This document shows positions 9,691 through 17,708 of a stretch of DNA of 64,000 nucleotides, piece after piece; the first letter of the stretch is position 1, and the number at the start of each line of letters is the position of its first letter. Origin of the DNA: Planctomycetota bacterium (lineage in GTDB: Bacteria > Planctomycetota > UBA1135 > GCA-002686595); assembly GCA_028278425.1 (NCBI GenBank), contig JANQEJ010000057.1:1-64000 (forward strand), read 5' to 3'. Below the pieces are notes generated by a model. That model worked only from the letters and a program-made list of their open reading frames with translations. It searched no databases and was not told the origin of the DNA. The translations under genes were made by a program, and so were the position numbers.

Positions 9691-10977
9691 TCAAGGCATT
9701 CGAGCTGCCGTGGCCTCGTTCACGGAAGCGCGCAGCTCCGCCGAACGGGCGTGAGCTTCCAGGCCTTCCAGGCGCGCGAGCCGCGCCGCGTCCCGCGCCA
9801 GCGAGCTGGCCTCGTCGGTGTTCTCCGACGCTAGCCAGGTCCGGACGCGCAGGAGATCCAGCACGGAGAGCCCGCCCTGGAAGCGTGCCCCCCGGCCGGT
9901 CGGCAGCACGTGGTTCGGCCCGGCGCCGTAGTCCCCCAGCGCCTCGGCCGCGTTCGAGCCGAGGAACAGTGCGCCGCAATGCCGGACACGTCGCGCCGCG
10001 GCGGCGGGATCGGGCACGTGCAATGCGAGGTGCTCCGGAGCGAGCGCGTCCGCGACCTCCAGCGCTTCGTTCAGATCGCGCGCGACGACCGCGAAGCCGC
10101 GCTGCAAGGACTCCGCCGCGCAGGTTTCGCCGAGCTCTGTGAGCTGACGGGTGAGCTCGTCGTCGACCGCGTCCGCGAACGCCGGCGACGTCGTCACCAG
10201 GACCGGGAGCGCGTCGACGTCGTGCTCGGCCTGCGCGAGGAGATCCGCCGCCACCATCGCGGCGTCCGCGTCTCCGTCCGCGACGACGACGAGCTCCGAA
10301 GGTCCCGCGAGGCCGTCGATGCCGACGTCGCCGAAGACGATCTGCTTCGCCGCGGTCACCCAACGGTTGCCGGGGCCGCACACGAAGTCCACCGGCGGTA
10401 CGGACTCGGTTCCGTATGCGAGCGCGGCGACGGCCTGCGCGCCGCCGACCGCGAGGACCCGGTCCGCGCCCGCCACCGCCGCCGCGGCGAGCGTCACGGC
10501 CGCGGGCCGCGGCGAGGCGACGAAGACGCGCGCGACTCCCGCGGTTCTCGCGGTAACGCCGGTCATCAGCACCGAGGAGGGAAGCGGGAAGCGTCCGCCG
10601 GGAGCGTAGCAGCCGGCGCTCGCGACGGGCTCTAGCGTATGTCCCGCGCGACCGCCGGCGACGGGCACGTCGATCGGGCGCAGCGCGGCGCGCTGCGCCT
10701 CGGCGAAGGTCCGGATGCGATCGGCGGTGCGCTCCAGCAGGGCGTCGACCTCCCGTCCAACGATCTGACGCGCGCGGTCGAGCTCGTCCCGCTCGATCAC
10801 GAGCGGCTCTCCGGGCTCCAGGTCGCCCAGGCGCTCGGCATGCTCGCGGAGCGCTTCGTCCCCGCGCGACCGGACGTCGTCGACGATCGCGAGCGCGGTG
10901 GCGCGCGTCTCCCGGTCGACGGCGCTGCGCTGCGAGCGCGGAAGCTGATCGGGCGAGACTCGGCGCAGAGCGCTCAC
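9691..10977 (-). CDS. hisD: histidinol dehydrogenase
   Basis: 'GCYAPGGRFPLPSSVLMTGVTARTAGV', 'DFVCGPGNRWVTAAKQIVFGDVGIDGLAGPSELVVVAD', 'AQAEHDVDA', 'APEHLALHV'; GTG start overlaps upstream stop. Confidence 0.95.
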   Translation of the reverse strand: MSALRRVSPDQLPRSQRSAVDRETRATALAIVDDVRSRGDEALREHAERLGDLEPGEPLVIERDELDRARQIVGREVDALLERTADRIRTFAEAQRAALRPIDVPVAGGRAGHTLEPVASAGCYAPGGRFPLPSSVLMTGVTARTAGVARVFVASPRPAAVTLAAAAVAGADRVLAVGGAQAVAALAYGTESVPPVDFVCGPGNRWVTAAKQIVFGDVGIDGLAGPSELVVVADGDADAAMVAADLLAQAEHDVDALPVLVTTSPAFADAVDDELTRQLTELGETCAAESLQRGFAVVARDLNEALEVADALAPEHLALHVPDPAAAARRVRHCGALFLGSNAAEALGDYGAGPNHVLPTGRGARFQGGLSVLDLLRVRTWLASENTDEASSLARDAARLARLEGLEAHARSAELRASVNEATAARMP

Positions 10978-12248
10978 GTCACACCTCCCGTTGCGGTCTT
11001 GGCGTCGCCGCGGCGGCGCGTGAGGCGCAGGGCGCGCGCGTCCAACTCGCTCTCGATCTCCGCGAGCGATACGCCGGCGCGCGCGGCGGCGACGAGCGCG
11101 AAGTAGAGAAGGTCCGCCGCCTCGTGCCGCACTTCGGACGTCTTGCCGGCATCGGCGAGCTCCGCCGCTTCCTCGACGAGCTTCGCGCGCAGGAGCTCGG
11201 CGTCTTCGAGGAGACGGCGCGTGTAGGAGCCCGCCTCGGCCGAGCCGACGCGTTCCGCCAGCGTTCGCTCCAGCTTGTCCAGACCGCGCCGCTCGCCCCA
11301 GCACGACGCCGCGCCGGTGTGGCAGAACCCCGCGCCGGCCTGCCTCACGGTGAAGCGCAGCACGTCGCGGTCGCAGTCGACGTCGAGGCGGAGCAGCTCC
11401 TGCGTGGCGCCGGACGATTCGCCCTTGCGCCAGAAGCCGCGCCGCCGCGATCGGTAGACGCCGCGGCGCTCGTCGATCGCGGCGCGCAGGCTTTCGAGGC
11501 TCGACCACGCGAGGCCCAGCGCGACGCCGCGCTCGTCGGTGACCACGGTCGGCCAGAGGCCGTCGGCGCGGTCGCTCCGCAGCGGCGCCGCGAACGCCTC
11601 CGCCAGGCCGAGGCGGCCAGTATAGAGCGCCATCCCCACCTGCGCGTCCGCGCCGAGCCGGTCGAGCGCGGCGACCTCCTCGGCCGTGGTCACGCCGCCC
11701 GCGATCGTGACGCGCGCGTCCCCGGCCGCCGCGACGAGCTCCTCGACGCGATCGAGCGCGGTTCCGCCGAGGCGTCCCTCGCGCTCGACGAACGTGACGA
11801 GGAAGCCGCCGGCGAGACCGCGGAGCTCGCGCAGGCGTTCGAGCGGCGCGCGGCCGGTGCCTTCGCGCCAGCCCTTGACGACGACCTCGCCGTGCTCGTT
11901 GTCGAGGGCGACGACGACGCGCTCGCGGGGAAGTTTGCTCAGCAGCGCCGGCTCCGCCGCCGTGCCGATCACGATCCGCTCGGCGCCGGCGTCGAGCCAA
12001 CGCCGCGCGGCGTCGTAGTCGCGGATTCCGCCGCCGACCCGGCAGGGGAAGCGCGCGCACAGGTCGCGGATCGGGCCTTCGTTGGAGCCCGTGCCGAGCG
12101 CGGCGTCGAGGTCGACCACCGCGATCGGTCCGACCGTCGCGAAGCGCTCCGCGATCGGAAAGGGATCGCCGGCGTCGAGCGCTTGCTCCCTTCCGCCGAC
12201 GAGCTGGACGGTCTTTCCGTTCGCAAGGTCGATCGAGGGGACGATCAC
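10974..12248 (-). CDS. hisA: trifunctional HisA-HisI-HisE fusion (ProFAR isomerase / PRA cyclohydrolase / PRA-PH)
   Basis: HisA 'IVPSIDLANGKTVQLVGG...VGGGIRDYDAARRWLDAGAERIVIGTA...TIAGGVTTAEEV'; HisI 'LWPTVVTDERGVALGLAWSSLESL...SRRRGFWRKGESSGATQ...LDVDCDRDVLRFTV...CHTGAASCW'; HisE 'LDKLERTLAERV...KLVEEAAELADA...EVRHEAADLLYFALVAAA' in one ORF. Confidence 0.9.
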   Translation of the reverse strand: MIVPSIDLANGKTVQLVGGREQALDAGDPFPIAERFATVGPIAVVDLDAALGTGSNEGPIRDLCARFPCRVGGGIRDYDAARRWLDAGAERIVIGTAAEPALLSKLPRERVVVALDNEHGEVVVKGWREGTGRAPLERLRELRGLAGGFLVTFVEREGRLGGTALDRVEELVAAAGDARVTIAGGVTTAEEVAALDRLGADAQVGMALYTGRLGLAEAFAAPLRSDRADGLWPTVVTDERGVALGLAWSSLESLRAAIDERRGVYRSRRRGFWRKGESSGATQELLRLDVDCDRDVLRFTVRQAGAGFCHTGAASCWGERRGLDKLERTLAERVGSAEAGSYTRRLLEDAELLRAKLVEEAAELADAGKTSEVRHEAADLLYFALVAAARAGVSLAEIESELDARALRLTRRRGDAKTATGGVT

Positions 12249-13000
12249 CGGCGCACCTCCAGCCCTTCGCGGGCCAGCGTTCCCTTCAGGTCGGCTACCG
12301 TGAGGTCGCCGTCGTGGAAGAGCGACGCGGCGAGCACCGCGCTCGCGCCCGCGCGCAGCGCCGCCGCGAGATCGCGCGCCGTCGCGGCGCCGCCCGAGGC
12401 GATCACGGGCACGTCGACCGCTGCACAGAGCGTCTCGAGCAGCTCCAGGTCATAGCCCTCGCGCGTGCCGTCGCGGTCCCAGCTCGTGAGCAGGACCTCG
12501 CCGGCTCCGCGGGCCTGGGCTTGCCGGGCCCAGTCGACGGCGTCGACGCCCGTTGGCTCCCTGCCGCTCCGCACCACGACCTCGAAGCCGCCCTGATCGT
12601 CGCGCGCCGCGTCGATCGCGACGACGGTGCACTGCAGACCGAAGCGCTCCGCGATCTCGCTCAGGAGCTCCGGCCGGGCGACCGCGGCGGTGTTGGCGGC
12701 GACCTTGTCGGCGCCCGAGTCCAGCAGCCGCGCCGCGTCGTCGACCGCGCGCACGCCGCCGCCGACGGTCAGCGGGATGCCGAGCCGCGCGCGCACGCGC
12801 TCGACGGTGCGCACCGCGTGCGCGCGCCCCTCCGGCGTCGCGGAGACGTCGAGCAGCACGATCTCGTCGGCGCCCTGGTCTTCATAGCGCTCCGCGAGCT
12901 CGGCCGGATCCCCGGCGTCGCGCAGGCCCTGGAAGCGGACGCCCTTGACCACGCGGCCGTCCTTCACGTCGAGGCAGGGGATGATCCGCGCGGTCAGCAC
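12245..13000 (-). CDS. hisF: imidazole glycerol phosphate synthase subunit HisF
   Basis: 'LTARIIPCLDVKDGRVVKGVRFQGLRDAGDPAELAERYEDQGADEIVLLD'; GTG start at 13000. Confidence 0.95.
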   Translation of the reverse strand: MLTARIIPCLDVKDGRVVKGVRFQGLRDAGDPAELAERYEDQGADEIVLLDVSATPEGRAHAVRTVERVRARLGIPLTVGGGVRAVDDAARLLDSGADKVAANTAAVARPELLSEIAERFGLQCTVVAIDAARDDQGGFEVVVRSGREPTGVDAVDWARQAQARGAGEVLLTSWDRDGTREGYDLELLETLCAAVDVPVIASGGAATARDLAAALRAGASAVLAASLFHDGDLTVADLKGTLAREGLEVRR

Positions 13001-13605
13001 GACGCACCTCCCGCGAGCCAGCGCGCGAGGAGCTCCCTGCCGAAGTCGCCGGAGAGCTCGGGATGGAACTGGCACGCGAGGACGTCGCCCCGCTCGAGCG
13101 CCGCGACGAAACGCCCGCCGTGGTCGGCGTAGGCGGCCGACCAACCGGGCGGCGCGTCGACGAAGCGGTAGGTGTTGGCGAAGTAGGCGTAGCCCCGCGC
13201 GAGGAGGTGCGCGCTCGCGTCGGGCTCGATCCGGTTCCATCCGAGCTGCGGACGGGTGACCGTGTCTGGAAAGCGGCGCGCGAAGCGGTCGACGACACCG
13301 AGCCCGGCAGCGTCGGGCGTCTCTTCGCTTCCCGCGCCGAGAAGCTGCAAACCGAGGCAGATCGCCAGGGTTGGTTTCCCCGCGTCGATGCGCTCGCGCA
13401 GCGCGTCGGCGAGCCCGTCGGCTTCGAGCGCCGCGAGCGCGGCGCCGAACGCTCCGACGCCTGGTAGGACGACGCGGTCCGCCGCGCGCACCGCGTCCGC
13501 CGACCGGGTGATCGCCGGACGCGCCCCCAATCGCTCGAGGCCGACCATCACGGAGGCGAGGTTCGACGTGCCCGTTCGCACGACGGCGACGTCGCGGCCG
13601 GTCAC
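12994..13605 (-). CDS. hisH: imidazole glycerol phosphate synthase subunit HisH
   Basis: 'TGTSNLASVMVGLERLGA', 'VVLPGVGAFGAAL', 'AICLGLQLLG', 'CQFHPELSGDFG'; GTG start at 13605. Confidence 0.93.
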   Translation of the reverse strand: MTGRDVAVVRTGTSNLASVMVGLERLGARPAITRSADAVRAADRVVLPGVGAFGAALAALEADGLADALRERIDAGKPTLAICLGLQLLGAGSEETPDAAGLGVVDRFARRFPDTVTRPQLGWNRIEPDASAHLLARGYAYFANTYRFVDAPPGWSAAYADHGGRFVAALERGDVLACQFHPELSGDFGRELLARWLAGGASC

Positions 13606-14183
13606 GCGAGCACCCCCTTCGTGCTCGGCACTTCGTCCGTGCCGTCGGAGGCGACGGCTTCGCGCAGCGCGAGGGCGAGCGCCTTGAAGGCCGCTTCGGC
13701 GCGGTGGTGGTCGTTCTCGCCCTTCAAGACGTCGACGTGGATCGCGGCGCGCAGCGCGAACGCGAGCGAGCGCAGCACGTGCCCGACGTTTTCGCAGGCG
13801 AGAGCGCCGAGCCGCTCGCGCCGCAGCCCGAGGTCGATCGCCGGCCACGGCCGGCCGGAGAGGTCGACGACCGCTCGGGCGAGGGCTTCGTCGAGCGGCG
13901 CGTAGGCCGAGCCGAAGCGCCGGATGCCGCGCCGCTCGCCCAACGCCTCGTCGATCGCGCCGCCGAGGGCCAGCGCGCAGTCCTCGGCCGTGTGGTGGTC
14001 GTCGACCTCGAGGTCCCCTTCGCAGGTCAGCGTGACGTCGAAGCGCGCGTGCTTCGCCAAGGCGGTCAGCAGGTGGTCGAGGAAGCCGATCCCGGTCCGG
14101 ACGCGCGCCTCGCCGCGGCCTTCGAGCTCGACGCTGACCTCGATCCGCGTCTCCGCGGTCTTTCGCTGGAGCTGCGCCTTCAT
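13602..14183 (-). CDS. hisB: imidazoleglycerol-phosphate dehydratase
   Basis: 'RTGIGFLDHLLTALAKHARFDVTLTCEGDLEVDDHHTAEDCALALG'. Confidence 0.95.
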   Translation of the reverse strand: MKAQLQRKTAETRIEVSVELEGRGEARVRTGIGFLDHLLTALAKHARFDVTLTCEGDLEVDDHHTAEDCALALGGAIDEALGERRGIRRFGSAYAPLDEALARAVVDLSGRPWPAIDLGLRRERLGALACENVGHVLRSLAFALRAAIHVDVLKGENDHHRAEAAFKALALALREAVASDGTDEVPSTKGVLA

Positions 14184-15217
14184 CCGAGCACCTCCGCGAG
14201 CGCCCCCGCGAGGCGCTTCATGTCCGCCGCGTTGCCGGGGCAGGTGATGCGCACCGCTCCGGCGAGCCTTCGGTTGTCCGGGAAGATCCGCACGGCGATC
14301 CCGCGCGCGGCGAGCCCGTCGCGCAAGTTCTTGGGGTTCGCGACGTCCGCCAGCACGAAGTTGGCCTGCGTCGGACGCGGTCCTGCGCCGAGGTCGCGGA
14401 GAAGCGCGGAGAGCTCGACGCGCTCGCGGCGAACGCGCTCGACGTACGCGCGCATCGCCCGCTCCCCGGTGCGCAACCGCGCCAAGGCGAGCGCCAGCGA
14501 GGGGCCCGCGACCGCGAACGGGCTTCCCGTCGCGCGCAGCGGCGTCACGAGCTCGCGCGGTCCCATCGCCCAGCCGACGCGCGCGCCCGCCAGGCCCCAG
14601 GCCTTGGAGAACGTCCGCACGACGATCACGTTCGGGAGCGCGAGCGCGGTCTCCGTGAGGTCCTCGTCGGCGAACTCGGCGTACGCGAGGTCGGCGAGCA
14701 CCGGCGCGGGCGCGAGCGCCGCCGCGACGCGGCGGAGGTCTTCGCCGGAGGCGACGGAGCCCGTCGGGTTGCTCGGGGACACGACCGCCGCCATGCCCAC
14801 GCGCCCGCGTGCCGCGTCGATCGCCGCGAGCACGCCCTCGGTCGGGAAGCGTCCGTCCGTCTCGGGAACCTCCCGGATCTCCGCGCCGGCCAGGTAGGCG
14901 TAGCGCGGGATCATCTCGAAGGCGGGTACGGCGACGGCCAGATCCCGTCCGCCGCCGAGGTAGGCGAGCGAAGCGCGGAAGAGCGCGTCGTCCGCTCCGG
15001 CCGTCACGACGACCTGATCGGGCGCGAGGCCGAAGCGAGCGGCGAGAACCTCCTCGAGCTCCGCTTGCTTCGGGTAACGGCGGACCCGTTCGGGATCGAT
15101 CCGCTCGTCCGGGAGCCAGGCGTCGATCCGCGGACCCTCGTTGGCGTCGAGGTACAGATCGATCGGCGCGTCCGAACGGGGCACCGAGTAGGCGGTGGGG
15201 TAGGTGCGCGTGAGCAT
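14180..15217 (-). CDS. hisC: histidinol-phosphate aminotransferase
   Basis: 'LDANEGPR', 'AVVSPSNPTGSVASGEDLRRV', 'VVRTFSKAWGLAGARVGWAM'. Confidence 0.92.
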   Translation of the reverse strand: MLTRTYPTAYSVPRSDAPIDLYLDANEGPRIDAWLPDERIDPERVRRYPKQAELEEVLAARFGLAPDQVVVTAGADDALFRASLAYLGGGRDLAVAVPAFEMIPRYAYLAGAEIREVPETDGRFPTEGVLAAIDAARGRVGMAAVVSPSNPTGSVASGEDLRRVAAALAPAPVLADLAYAEFADEDLTETALALPNVIVVRTFSKAWGLAGARVGWAMGPRELVTPLRATGSPFAVAGPSLALALARLRTGERAMRAYVERVRRERVELSALLRDLGAGPRPTQANFVLADVANPKNLRDGLAARGIAVRIFPDNRRLAGAVRITCPGNAADMKRLAGALAEVLG

Positions 15218-15227
15218 CGGTTTCCTC

Positions 15228-16106
15228 CTACGGGACGATCTGCGAGACCTGGGAGACGACGATGTCCGAGCCGCCGCGCGCCTTGACCGCGGCGACGAGC
15301 TGCGGAAGTCCCTTGCGCGGAACGGCCGCCTTCACGCCGTAGCCGCCGTTTCCGACGAGGGCCGCGACGGTGGGCTGCTCCATGCAGGGGAGCATCGCGC
15401 AGACGGCGTCGAGGCTCGCGGCCGGGACGTTCACCTCGAACAGCACGCGGCCGCGCGCCTCGATCACCGAGCGGACGATCAGGGCGAGCGCGTCGATCGC
15501 CTCCCGCCGCAGCGGATCGTCGAGCGCGCGCGGGTTCGCATAGAGCCGGGTGGTCGACGTCATCAGCTCGTCGACCACCTCCAATCCGTTCGATGCCAGC
15601 GTCGCGCCGGTCTGCGTGTTGTCGACGATGACGTCGGCGTCCTCCGGCGGGAAGACCTCGGTAGCGCCGAAGGTCCGCAGGAAGGTCGCCCGAAGCTCGC
15701 GCCGCCGGATCCACTCGCGCGTGAGCCGCTCGTACTCGGAGGCGACCACCAGTTCCCCGCCGTTGCTCTGCAGGCCCGCCTGCGCCAGCTTGCCGGGCGC
15801 CGCCGCGACGACGCGCACCTCGTCGAGCTCGGTGTCGACCAGCTCGACGAGATCCGCCTCCAGCTCGCAGACCCAGTCCGCGCCGGCGAAGCCGACGTCG
15901 CGCGAGCCGGCGTGGAGCATCTCGACGACGTTCTGCGGCTTCAAGAGCTTGATCTCGAAGCCGGAGATCGAGAGCTGGGGCCGGTAGTCGCGGGCGGTCG
16001 CCCGCACCTGGATGCCGGCGTCGCCGAGCAGGTCGACCACGCCCGCCTGCATGCGCCCTTTCGGAAGCGCCAGGCGGACGATCTCGGGGTTGCGTTCGGG
16101 GGTCAT
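15228..16106 (-). CDS. hisG: ATP phosphoribosyltransferase (long form)
   Basis: 'VRLALPKGRMQAGVVDLLGDAGIQV', 'DVGFAGADWVCEL', 'ADVIVDNTQTGATLASNGLEVVDELM', C-terminal regulatory domain-like. Confidence 0.93.
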   Translation of the reverse strand: MTPERNPEIVRLALPKGRMQAGVVDLLGDAGIQVRATARDYRPQLSISGFEIKLLKPQNVVEMLHAGSRDVGFAGADWVCELEADLVELVDTELDEVRVVAAAPGKLAQAGLQSNGGELVVASEYERLTREWIRRRELRATFLRTFGATEVFPPEDADVIVDNTQTGATLASNGLEVVDELMTSTTRLYANPRALDDPLRREAIDALALIVRSVIEARGRVLFEVNVPAASLDAVCAMLPCMEQPTVAALVGNGGYGVKAAVPRKGLPQLVAAVKARGGSDIVVSQVSQIVP

Positions 16107-16161
16107 CGGGCTCTCCGTCGGTGGTGAGCCCCCGGGCGCGAGCGCGCCGCCCCAAATGCAG

Positions 16162-16185
16162 CACGCCGGCCCGAGGGCCGGCGTG
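16162..16185 (-). terminator. his attenuator terminator hairpin
   Basis: Minus-strand CACGCCGGCCC-TC-GGGCCGGCGTG: perfect 11-bp stem between leader peptide and hisG; weak T-run downstream (GCTGCATTT). Confidence 0.65.
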
Positions 16186-16216
16186 GCGGCGATCGATTCC
16201 TAAGCGTCGACGGCCA

Positions 16217-16279
16217 TCACCCGACCCCGAAGGTCGCGTGATGATGGTGGTGGCGCGGGAAAGCGATCGAGCGGGTCAT
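16217..16279 (-). CDS. hisL: histidine operon leader peptide MTRSIAFPRHHHHHATFGVG
   Basis: Five consecutive His codons (CAC CAC CAT CAT CAC), 20 aa, followed by stop, hairpin and hisG. Confidence 0.85.
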   Translation of the reverse strand: MTRSIAFPRHHHHHATFGVG

Positions 16280-16288
16280 CGAAGGCGC

Positions 16289-16317
16289 ACGGTAGGGGCG
16301 TTTCACGGATTCGTCAA
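16289..16317 (-). promoter_or_regulatory. candidate his operon promoter
   Basis: Minus-strand TTGACG - 17 bp - TACCGT, -10 ending 9 nt upstream of leader ATG. Confidence 0.45.
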
Positions 16318-16526
16318 GCGGGTCGCGGACGCATTCGCAGGCGCCGCCGGCGGGGATGCGCCGGCATCCCGCATTTTTGGAGCGTGTGAGTCCGAAGGGG
16401 AACGCCCTCCGAACGCCTATCATCGGTGTTCCAGCGACCGGCTGCGCGCGCATCCCCCCGCCCTCGAAGCCCCGCCGGGGCCGCGTGGTCGCCTCGGCCA
16501 GAACACCCTCACCAGTCGTGAACGAG

Positions 16527-17708
16527 ATGAAGACCCTGCTGCTCGTCCTCGCCGGCTCCGCCGGGCTCGGCTCCCTCCTCTTCCAAGGCCAGGTCAGCGG
16601 TCGCAACGACGACCGCGCCGAACCCGGGACGCTGCCGGTCGAGGAGATTCGCGCTCGGCTCGAAGCGCCCGGTGCGCACGAGCCCTTCGTGCCGGAGGCG
16701 CCGCTCGGGATTCGCTCCGACCTTGCGGCCCTCATCCCCCCCGACAATCCCCTCACCCCGGCGAAGGTCGAGCTGGGCCGCCAGCTCTACTTCGACAAAC
16801 GGCTCTCGCGCGACGGAACGGTGTCCTGCGCGACGTGTCACGACCCGGCGCGCGGCTGGACGGACATCGCACGGGTGTCCACCGGCATCGACGGCCAGCT
16901 CGGCGGCCGCAGCGCGCCGACGGTGATCAACCGCGTGTTGGGGAAGACGCAGTTCTGGGACGGCCGCGCGGCCTCGCTCGAGGAGCAGGCGCTGGGTCCG
17001 ATCGGGAACCCGATCGAGATGGGCTTCAGCCCGGAGGAGGCGGCGAAGCGGCTCTCCGCGATCGAGGGCTACCGCATCCAGTTCGAGGCGGTCTTCGGCG
17101 AAGGGCCGACGCCGGACGGGATCGCCAAGGCGATCGCCTCGTTCGAGCGGACGATCCTCTCCGGTGGGAGCAAGAACGATTACTTCGAGCAGGCGCTGCC
17201 CTTTTTCGACTGGGAGCCCGAGGAGGACGAGGACCCCGACTTCGTTGCCCGCGTCGACCGCATCCTCGATCTGGAGAAGGCGCACCGGATGAGCGCCTCG
17301 GCCGAGCGCGGCCGCGAGCTCTTCTTCGGCAAGGCGAAGTGCTCCGCCTGCCACGTGGGCGAGGACCTCACCGACGAGTCCTTCCACAACATCGGAACCG
17401 GCATGGACGCGGAGAACCCCGACCTGGGTCGCTTCGTCGTCACCGGCGAGGAAGCGGACCAGGGCGCCTTCCGCACGCCGACGCTCCGGAACATCGCGCA
17501 AACCGCTCCTTACATGCACGACGGCAGCCTGCGGACGCTGCGCGAGGTGGTCGAGCACTACAACAAGGGCGGGACGAAGAACGCCTGGCTCTCCGAGAAG
17601 ATCTTCCCGCTCGGCCTGACCGAGCAGGAAAGGCAAGACGTCGTGCGGTTCATGGAGGAAGCGCTGACCGGCACGATCACCGACGTGGAAGTTCCTCGTC
17701 TGCCGTGA
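16527..17708 (+). CDS. di-haem cytochrome c peroxidase (MauG/CCP family)
   Basis: Two CxxCH motifs 'CATCHDPARGW' and 'CSACHVGEDLTD'; 'GGRSAPTVINRVL', 'FRTPTLRNIAQTAPYMHDGSLRTL'. Confidence 0.92.
   Translation: MKTLLLVLAGSAGLGSLLFQGQVSGRNDDRAEPGTLPVEEIRARLEAPGAHEPFVPEAPLGIRSDLAALIPPDNPLTPAKVELGRQLYFDKRLSRDGTVSCATCHDPARGWTDIARVSTGIDGQLGGRSAPTVINRVLGKTQFWDGRAASLEEQALGPIGNPIEMGFSPEEAAKRLSAIEGYRIQFEAVFGEGPTPDGIAKAIASFERTILSGGSKNDYFEQALPFFDWEPEEDEDPDFVARVDRILDLEKAHRMSASAERGRELFFGKAKCSACHVGEDLTDESFHNIGTGMDAENPDLGRFVVTGEEADQGAFRTPTLRNIAQTAPYMHDGSLRTLREVVEHYNKGGTKNAWLSEKIFPLGLTEQERQDVVRFMEEALTGTITDVEVPRLP

Follow-up and report, generated by a model that had tools for sequence, protein, structure and literature searches.

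Here we describe a histidine leader that, with high confidence, controls the his operon of a bacterium from an uncultured class of Planctomycetota as a ribosome-mediated transcription attenuator. The leader was found in a stretch of 64,000 nucleotides (hereafter the window), in which a short open reading frame with a run of histidine codons, followed by a strong hairpin, lies directly upstream of hisG. Together, leader and hairpin very probably turn the his genes on only when histidine is short. The evidence comes from the sequence and from its comparison with relatives, and consists of the leader itself, the hairpin, the coevolution of regions 2 and 3 and of regions 1 and 2, the position of the promoter, and the association of the leader with hisG. 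Attenuation of the his operon by a leader peptide is classical in E. coli.

Organization of the leader region and the his operon

All parts of the system lie on the minus strand, and the promoter boxes, open reading frame, His codons, hairpin and hisG are all located where the initial annotation had placed them. The best sigma70-like site near the leader, whose position is kept in relatives, combines a -35-like box TTGACG (16312..16317) with a -10-like box TACCGT (16289..16294) across a 17-nt spacer, the latter ending 9 nt before the leader ATG at 16279. The leader peptide MTRSIAFPRHHHHHATFGVG is encoded at 16217..16279 by 20 sense codons and a TGA stop (16219-16217), and its five control His codons, CAC CAC CAT CAT CAC, occupy 16238..16252. 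The final leader codons make up region 2, GGGTCGGGTG (16218..16227), a mimic of the terminator 3′ arm. In the absence of a ribosome, a 1:2 protector hairpin (16214..16247) is predicted in which the His codons are paired with the stop region; the pairing of CAUCAC with GUGAUGG across the leader stop, already proposed in the initial annotation, was confirmed. Modelled folding and coevolution define a 2:3 antiterminator hairpin at 16175..16227, composed of GGGUCGG-GUG...CAC-G-CCGGCCC and an inner helix. The 3:4 terminator hairpin, CACGCCGGCC(CTCG)GGCCGGCGTG followed by a weak U-tract CTGCATTTGGGG, lies at 16162..16185, beginning 31 nt past the leader stop and ending 55 nt ahead of hisG. It had been read as a perfect 11-bp stem, which would leave a 2-nt loop; the stem is instead 10 bp closed by a tetraloop. 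An equivalent hairpin is present in nearly all leader-bearing loci.

The gene downstream, hisG (15228..16106), encodes a long-form ATP phosphoribosyltransferase with a HisG_C domain (Pfam PF01634, PF08029). The rest of the operon (9691..15217) was assigned by Pfam for every gene except hisH, and follows in the order hisC (14180-15217), hisB (13602-14183), hisH (about 13000-13600, by sequence reading only), hisF (about 12245-13000), a hisA-hisI-hisE fusion (10974-12248) and hisD (within 9691-11000), so that the his operon is complete. On the plus strand, a further hairpin followed by ATTTTTG (16353-16370) lies ahead of a divergent gene for a di-haem cytochrome c peroxidase of the MauG type, which has a probable signal-peptide start near 16528.

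Distribution of the leader and chance expectation

A leader matching the pattern H.?H.?H was found in 27 of 30 hisG upstream regions of the class, where dinucleotide shuffles gave an expectation of 0.17, and on the opposite strand in none of the 30. For the window's own region, only 0.2% of 3000 shuffles contained such a leader and none contained HHHHH. With the addition of loci overlooked at first or truncated at contig ends (L008, G084, G085, G100, G113), 32 of the 34 class genomes that have the window's type of HisG carry a His-rich leader ahead of hisG; in the upstream regions of the other two, G083 and G142, no leader was found, and at the class locus G141 no clear terminator was found. 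The absence of the leader and hairpin from related genomes had been named at the outset as the observation that would speak against an attenuator, and both are instead widely kept.

The leader follows one type of HisG. Planctomycetota have two types, with about 50-65% and about 30% identity to the HisG of the window. Outside the class, the leader was present in all 19 planctomycetes with the window's type (50-65%) and in none of the 20 checked that carry the ordinary type (about 30%). In named genomes from outside Planctomycetota that have the window's type, it was found in Gemmatimonadota (8/15), Acidobacteriota (5/5), Spirochaetota (2/2), Sumerlaeota (1/2) and a few others, but it was rare in Myxococcota (2/15) and Pseudomonadota (2/16). 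In a HisG tree of 126 proteins the phyla are intermixed, with starred branches forcing only 2-3 changes per phylum, a resolution too poor for the tree to prove horizontal transfer. We therefore propose only tentatively, as a possibility that we rate somewhat below an even chance, that these leaders form a distinct leaderless his-attenuator family, tied to one his-operon type and present in several phyla (Planctomycetota, Gemmatimonadota, Acidobacteriota, Spirochaetota and others), which has travelled between lineages together with its operon, the two making up a regulated cassette that is self-contained and independent of any host regulator. Two MAGs from the same sampling series, labelled Coriobacteriia and Gemmatimonadetes (L063 and L065), have identical HisG and leader peptides, and one of them is therefore probably misbinned.

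Short His runs do arise by chance, and leader peptides with functions in trans are known, such as peTrpL (PMC7298713), so the run might be either accidental or part of a functional short His-rich protein with no regulatory role. Both readings are highly improbable: chance predicts 0.17 leaders where 27 of 30 were seen, the peptides vary widely between loci and have little in common beyond a His run of mixed CAC and CAT codons, the location of the leader is tied to one HisG type, and regions 1, 2 and 3 coevolve, as shown below.

The his operon itself is unevenly distributed in the class. HisG was found in only 38 of 154 class genomes and HisB in 37 (10 and 9 of the 53 good genomes), and the two sets of genomes almost coincide; a genome has the operon either whole or not at all, and most members of the class look like histidine auxotrophs. 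Three class genomes (G025, G078, G131) carry a different HisG type, with 30-38% identity to that of the window, so replacement or gain of the operon has occurred more than once.

A probable leaderless start

At 62 of the 74 loci compared, the best sigma70-like site has a -10 box that ends 6-11 nt before the start codon of the leader. The Shine-Dalgarno energy in the window is +0.6 kcal/mol for the leader versus -6.6 kcal/mol for hisG, and values at or below -5 kcal/mol occur for the leader at 7% of loci versus 58% for hisG. Because the -10 box is so close and there is no Shine-Dalgarno sequence, the leader mRNA is probably leaderless, and judging from the promoter position its RNA probably starts on the leader start codon or no more than about 5 nt from it. 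There is a published precedent in the trpL attenuator of Sinorhizobium meliloti (PMC7298713).

Coevolution of the pairing regions

The final leader codons (GGGUCGGGUG) resemble the terminator 3′ arm (GGGCCGGCGUG) and can pair with the 5′ arm. Across loci, the pair types of antiterminator and terminator change together at most arm positions, as in L016 (AGGUCGGC:GCCGGCCU) and L025 (GGAGCC:GGCUCC). Because both spacing and peptide vary, partner-swap tests were used in place of a class-wide alignment of whole leaders. Over 74 distinct loci, the 2:3 duplex of a locus with its own partner had a mean energy of -22.3 kcal/mol versus -19.6 kcal/mol (s.d. 0.32) with swapped partners, and the 1:2 pairing was likewise stronger than swapped; the respective z values of -8.3 and -6.0 are derived from related rather than independent sequences and should be taken to mean a strong signal rather than an exact probability. 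Four controls, in which region 3 was paired with the promoter region, the start of the open reading frame, the spacer between stop and terminator, or the His codons, gave no gain for the own partner at the same 74 loci. The covariation in related genomes that the initial annotation had suggested looking for is thus found for both pairs of regions.

Modelled folding and ribosome position

Folding was modelled co-transcriptionally in the window, with the ribosome represented as 12 nt covered downstream; this footprint, like the promoter scoring, is a simple model. With a ribosome stalled on His1-4 and region 3 out, the probability of the antiterminator was about 0.99, and without a ribosome it was 0, since the 1:2 hairpin (16247-16214) takes region 2. 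A stall at His5 already covers the first bases of region 2, leaving the GUG:CAC part. A ribosome with the stop codon in its A site hides region 2, which leaves the terminator as the one structure able to form. The 1:2 / 2:3 / 3:4 logic put forward in the initial annotation, which had called for folding with and without ribosome occlusion, is strongly supported by the model and by coevolution, although the particular antiterminator of that annotation is not. That pairing, GGCCG:CGGCC, never exceeded a probability of 0.1 in any modelled state, versus about 0.99 under a His stall for GGGUCGG:CCGGCCC with GUG:CAC and the inner helix; in the folding model, the better antiterminator is thus formed by GGGUCGG-GUG at the end of the leader open reading frame and CAC-G-CCGGCCC in the terminator 5′ arm.

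The same contrast extends to relatives. At 56 of the 74 loci, the terminator 5′ arm was more paired when the ribosome was stalled than when it had reached the stop, by a margin above 0.3; these comprise 24 of the 28 loci from the class, 15 of the 19 from other planctomycetes and 17 of the 27 others. Once all four regions have emerged, the terminator is favoured in every ribosome state. Since the terminator wins at full equilibrium, the antiterminator has to work as a kinetic trap. In known attenuators, switching is likewise kinetic and does not take place at equilibrium.

Proposed mechanism

The features that mark an amino-acid attenuator are present in the window: an open reading frame with His codons, its location ahead of the complete his operon and, by computation, an antiterminator and a terminator that are mutually exclusive, share one arm and depend on the position of the ribosome. 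From these we infer where the RNA starts, that the leader is translated, that transcription actually ends at a hairpin with a weak U-tract, and that the operon responds to histidine. RNA polymerase would initiate on the leader ATG or immediately upstream of it, and the leaderless 5′ end would then be loaded with a ribosome. When His-tRNA is charged, the ribosome would reach the stop codon and cover region 2 (16227-16218 + 12 nt beyond), region 3 would pair with region 4, and transcription would end before hisG. When His-tRNA is scarce, the ribosome would stall on the His run and block region 1, leaving region 2 to capture region 3 as it emerges, so that the terminator is prevented and the operon is read. 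If translation is absent altogether, the 1:2 hairpin would hide region 2 and the terminator would form.

The initial annotation had spoken of a classical translational attenuator of the his operon, and while a his attenuator is strongly supported, the word translational gives way to transcription. In translational attenuation, the ribosome on the leader would switch a structure masking the ribosome-binding site of hisG, and the hisG Shine-Dalgarno sequence in the window can indeed form a small hairpin, GGGCUC:GAGCCC. However, the conserved hairpin ends 38-200 nt before hisG across loci (55 nt in the window), the hisG Shine-Dalgarno sequence lies outside it, and over 22 loci that sequence is less paired than in shuffles (0.46 vs 0.58), all of which makes this reading very unlikely.

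A further question is raised by the U-tract. The tail 3′ of the window stem reads only CUGCAUUUGGGG, a poor U-tract on a strong stem, as the initial annotation had noted, and a consensus terminator scan of the window left the hairpin at 16185-16162 uncalled; many relatives have a similarly weak U-tract. The hairpin might then be a processing or stability element, or depend on Rho or NusA/NusG rather than being a stand-alone intrinsic terminator, with the leader still serving as the His sensor. Against this, the same hairpin is followed by good U-tracts in some relatives (TTTTTT at L012, TTTTGTG at L004), and region 2 is built as a competitor of the terminator 3′ arm; we consider this alternative unlikely. 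The terminator tails of class loci often have an interrupted U-tract, UUCGUUU or UUUCGUU, versus a plain run of U.

Discussion

Transcription attenuation through the leader peptide can be set against several known systems. In Firmicutes and Actinobacteria, his genes are under the control of T-boxes (PMC9413887), but neither the window nor 20 related loci matched any Rfam family at the gathering cut-off, and a T-box would need a far longer leader, so control by a T-box or another ligand-binding riboswitch has next to no chance of being correct. The Rfam model of the enterobacterial hisL attenuator, RF00514 (His_leader), gave no match at the gathering cut-off, nor at E 10 on 16090-16340, and at E 10 on that region nothing relevant of any family appeared. 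The window shares with hisL a His run in the leader, the 1:2/2:3/3:4 alternatives and a terminator before the first his gene, and differs from it in matching no covariance model, in its probable leaderless start, in its weak U-tract, in a short antiterminator made of the final leader codons, and in belonging to Planctomycetota. Candidate his attenuators of Firmicutes (Bacillus cereus group, Peptostreptococcaceae, Erysipelotrichales; PMC9413887) were also recognized by comparative genomics as a His leader with terminator and antiterminator before his genes, but they belong to another phylum and have other sequences, whereas the present set comprises one HisG type in several phyla. In S. meliloti, an alphaproteobacterium, the RNA of the trpL attenuator (rnTrpL/peTrpL; PMC7298713) starts at the ATG of the leader open reading frame and is leaderless, as predicted here, but that leader senses Trp and the one in the window His.

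In the literature, his leaders are known from Proteobacteria, and candidates have been described in some Firmicutes (PMC9413887, PMC2965389, PMC4833913), while Actinobacteria were examined and no his leader was found (PMC1262725). The literature searched, which covered few subscription journals, contained no description of a his leader in Planctomycetota, and the remark in the initial annotation that the system is not well described for this lineage fits it.

The trpE genes of the class show a related design. In at least 22 of 30 class trpE loci, a strong hairpin comes after a Trp-rich open reading frame (WWW or WxW), and the hairpin often has a good U-tract. Many of the trpE loci also have a TAnnnT box located some 7-9 nt ahead of the ATG; one short Trp-rich frame from these loci (L182-L211) reads MAQASPFWWWRNRPEGFPGAGSRYS. 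Like the leader in the window, these have a control-codon leader peptide and then a strong hairpin, but they differ in their Trp codons and better U-tracts. As Trp leaders precede most class trpE genes, leader-peptide attenuation seems general in the class. The window's own genome has no good match to trpE, only a PabB-like one, and of 61 class genomes a single one was found to have a bona fide leuA above the family cut-off. Several amino-acid pathways therefore look patchy in the class. Upstream of that single good leuA (G037, L216:1100-1500) lies an open reading frame rich in Leu, Ile and Val with a hairpin and then TTTTTT, perhaps a branched-chain attenuator.

The kind of mechanism is already known, and the points of interest are the leaderless initiation and the tight linkage to one type of his operon. 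The finding extends leader-peptide attenuation of his, and of trp, to Planctomycetota, and suggests that planctomycete attenuators use leaderless leader mRNAs. The dozens of natural variants with coevolving regions 2 and 3 provide a data set for attenuator models and for an Rfam family. Attenuation in these bacteria implies that transcription and translation are tightly coupled despite the unusual cell plan of the phylum.
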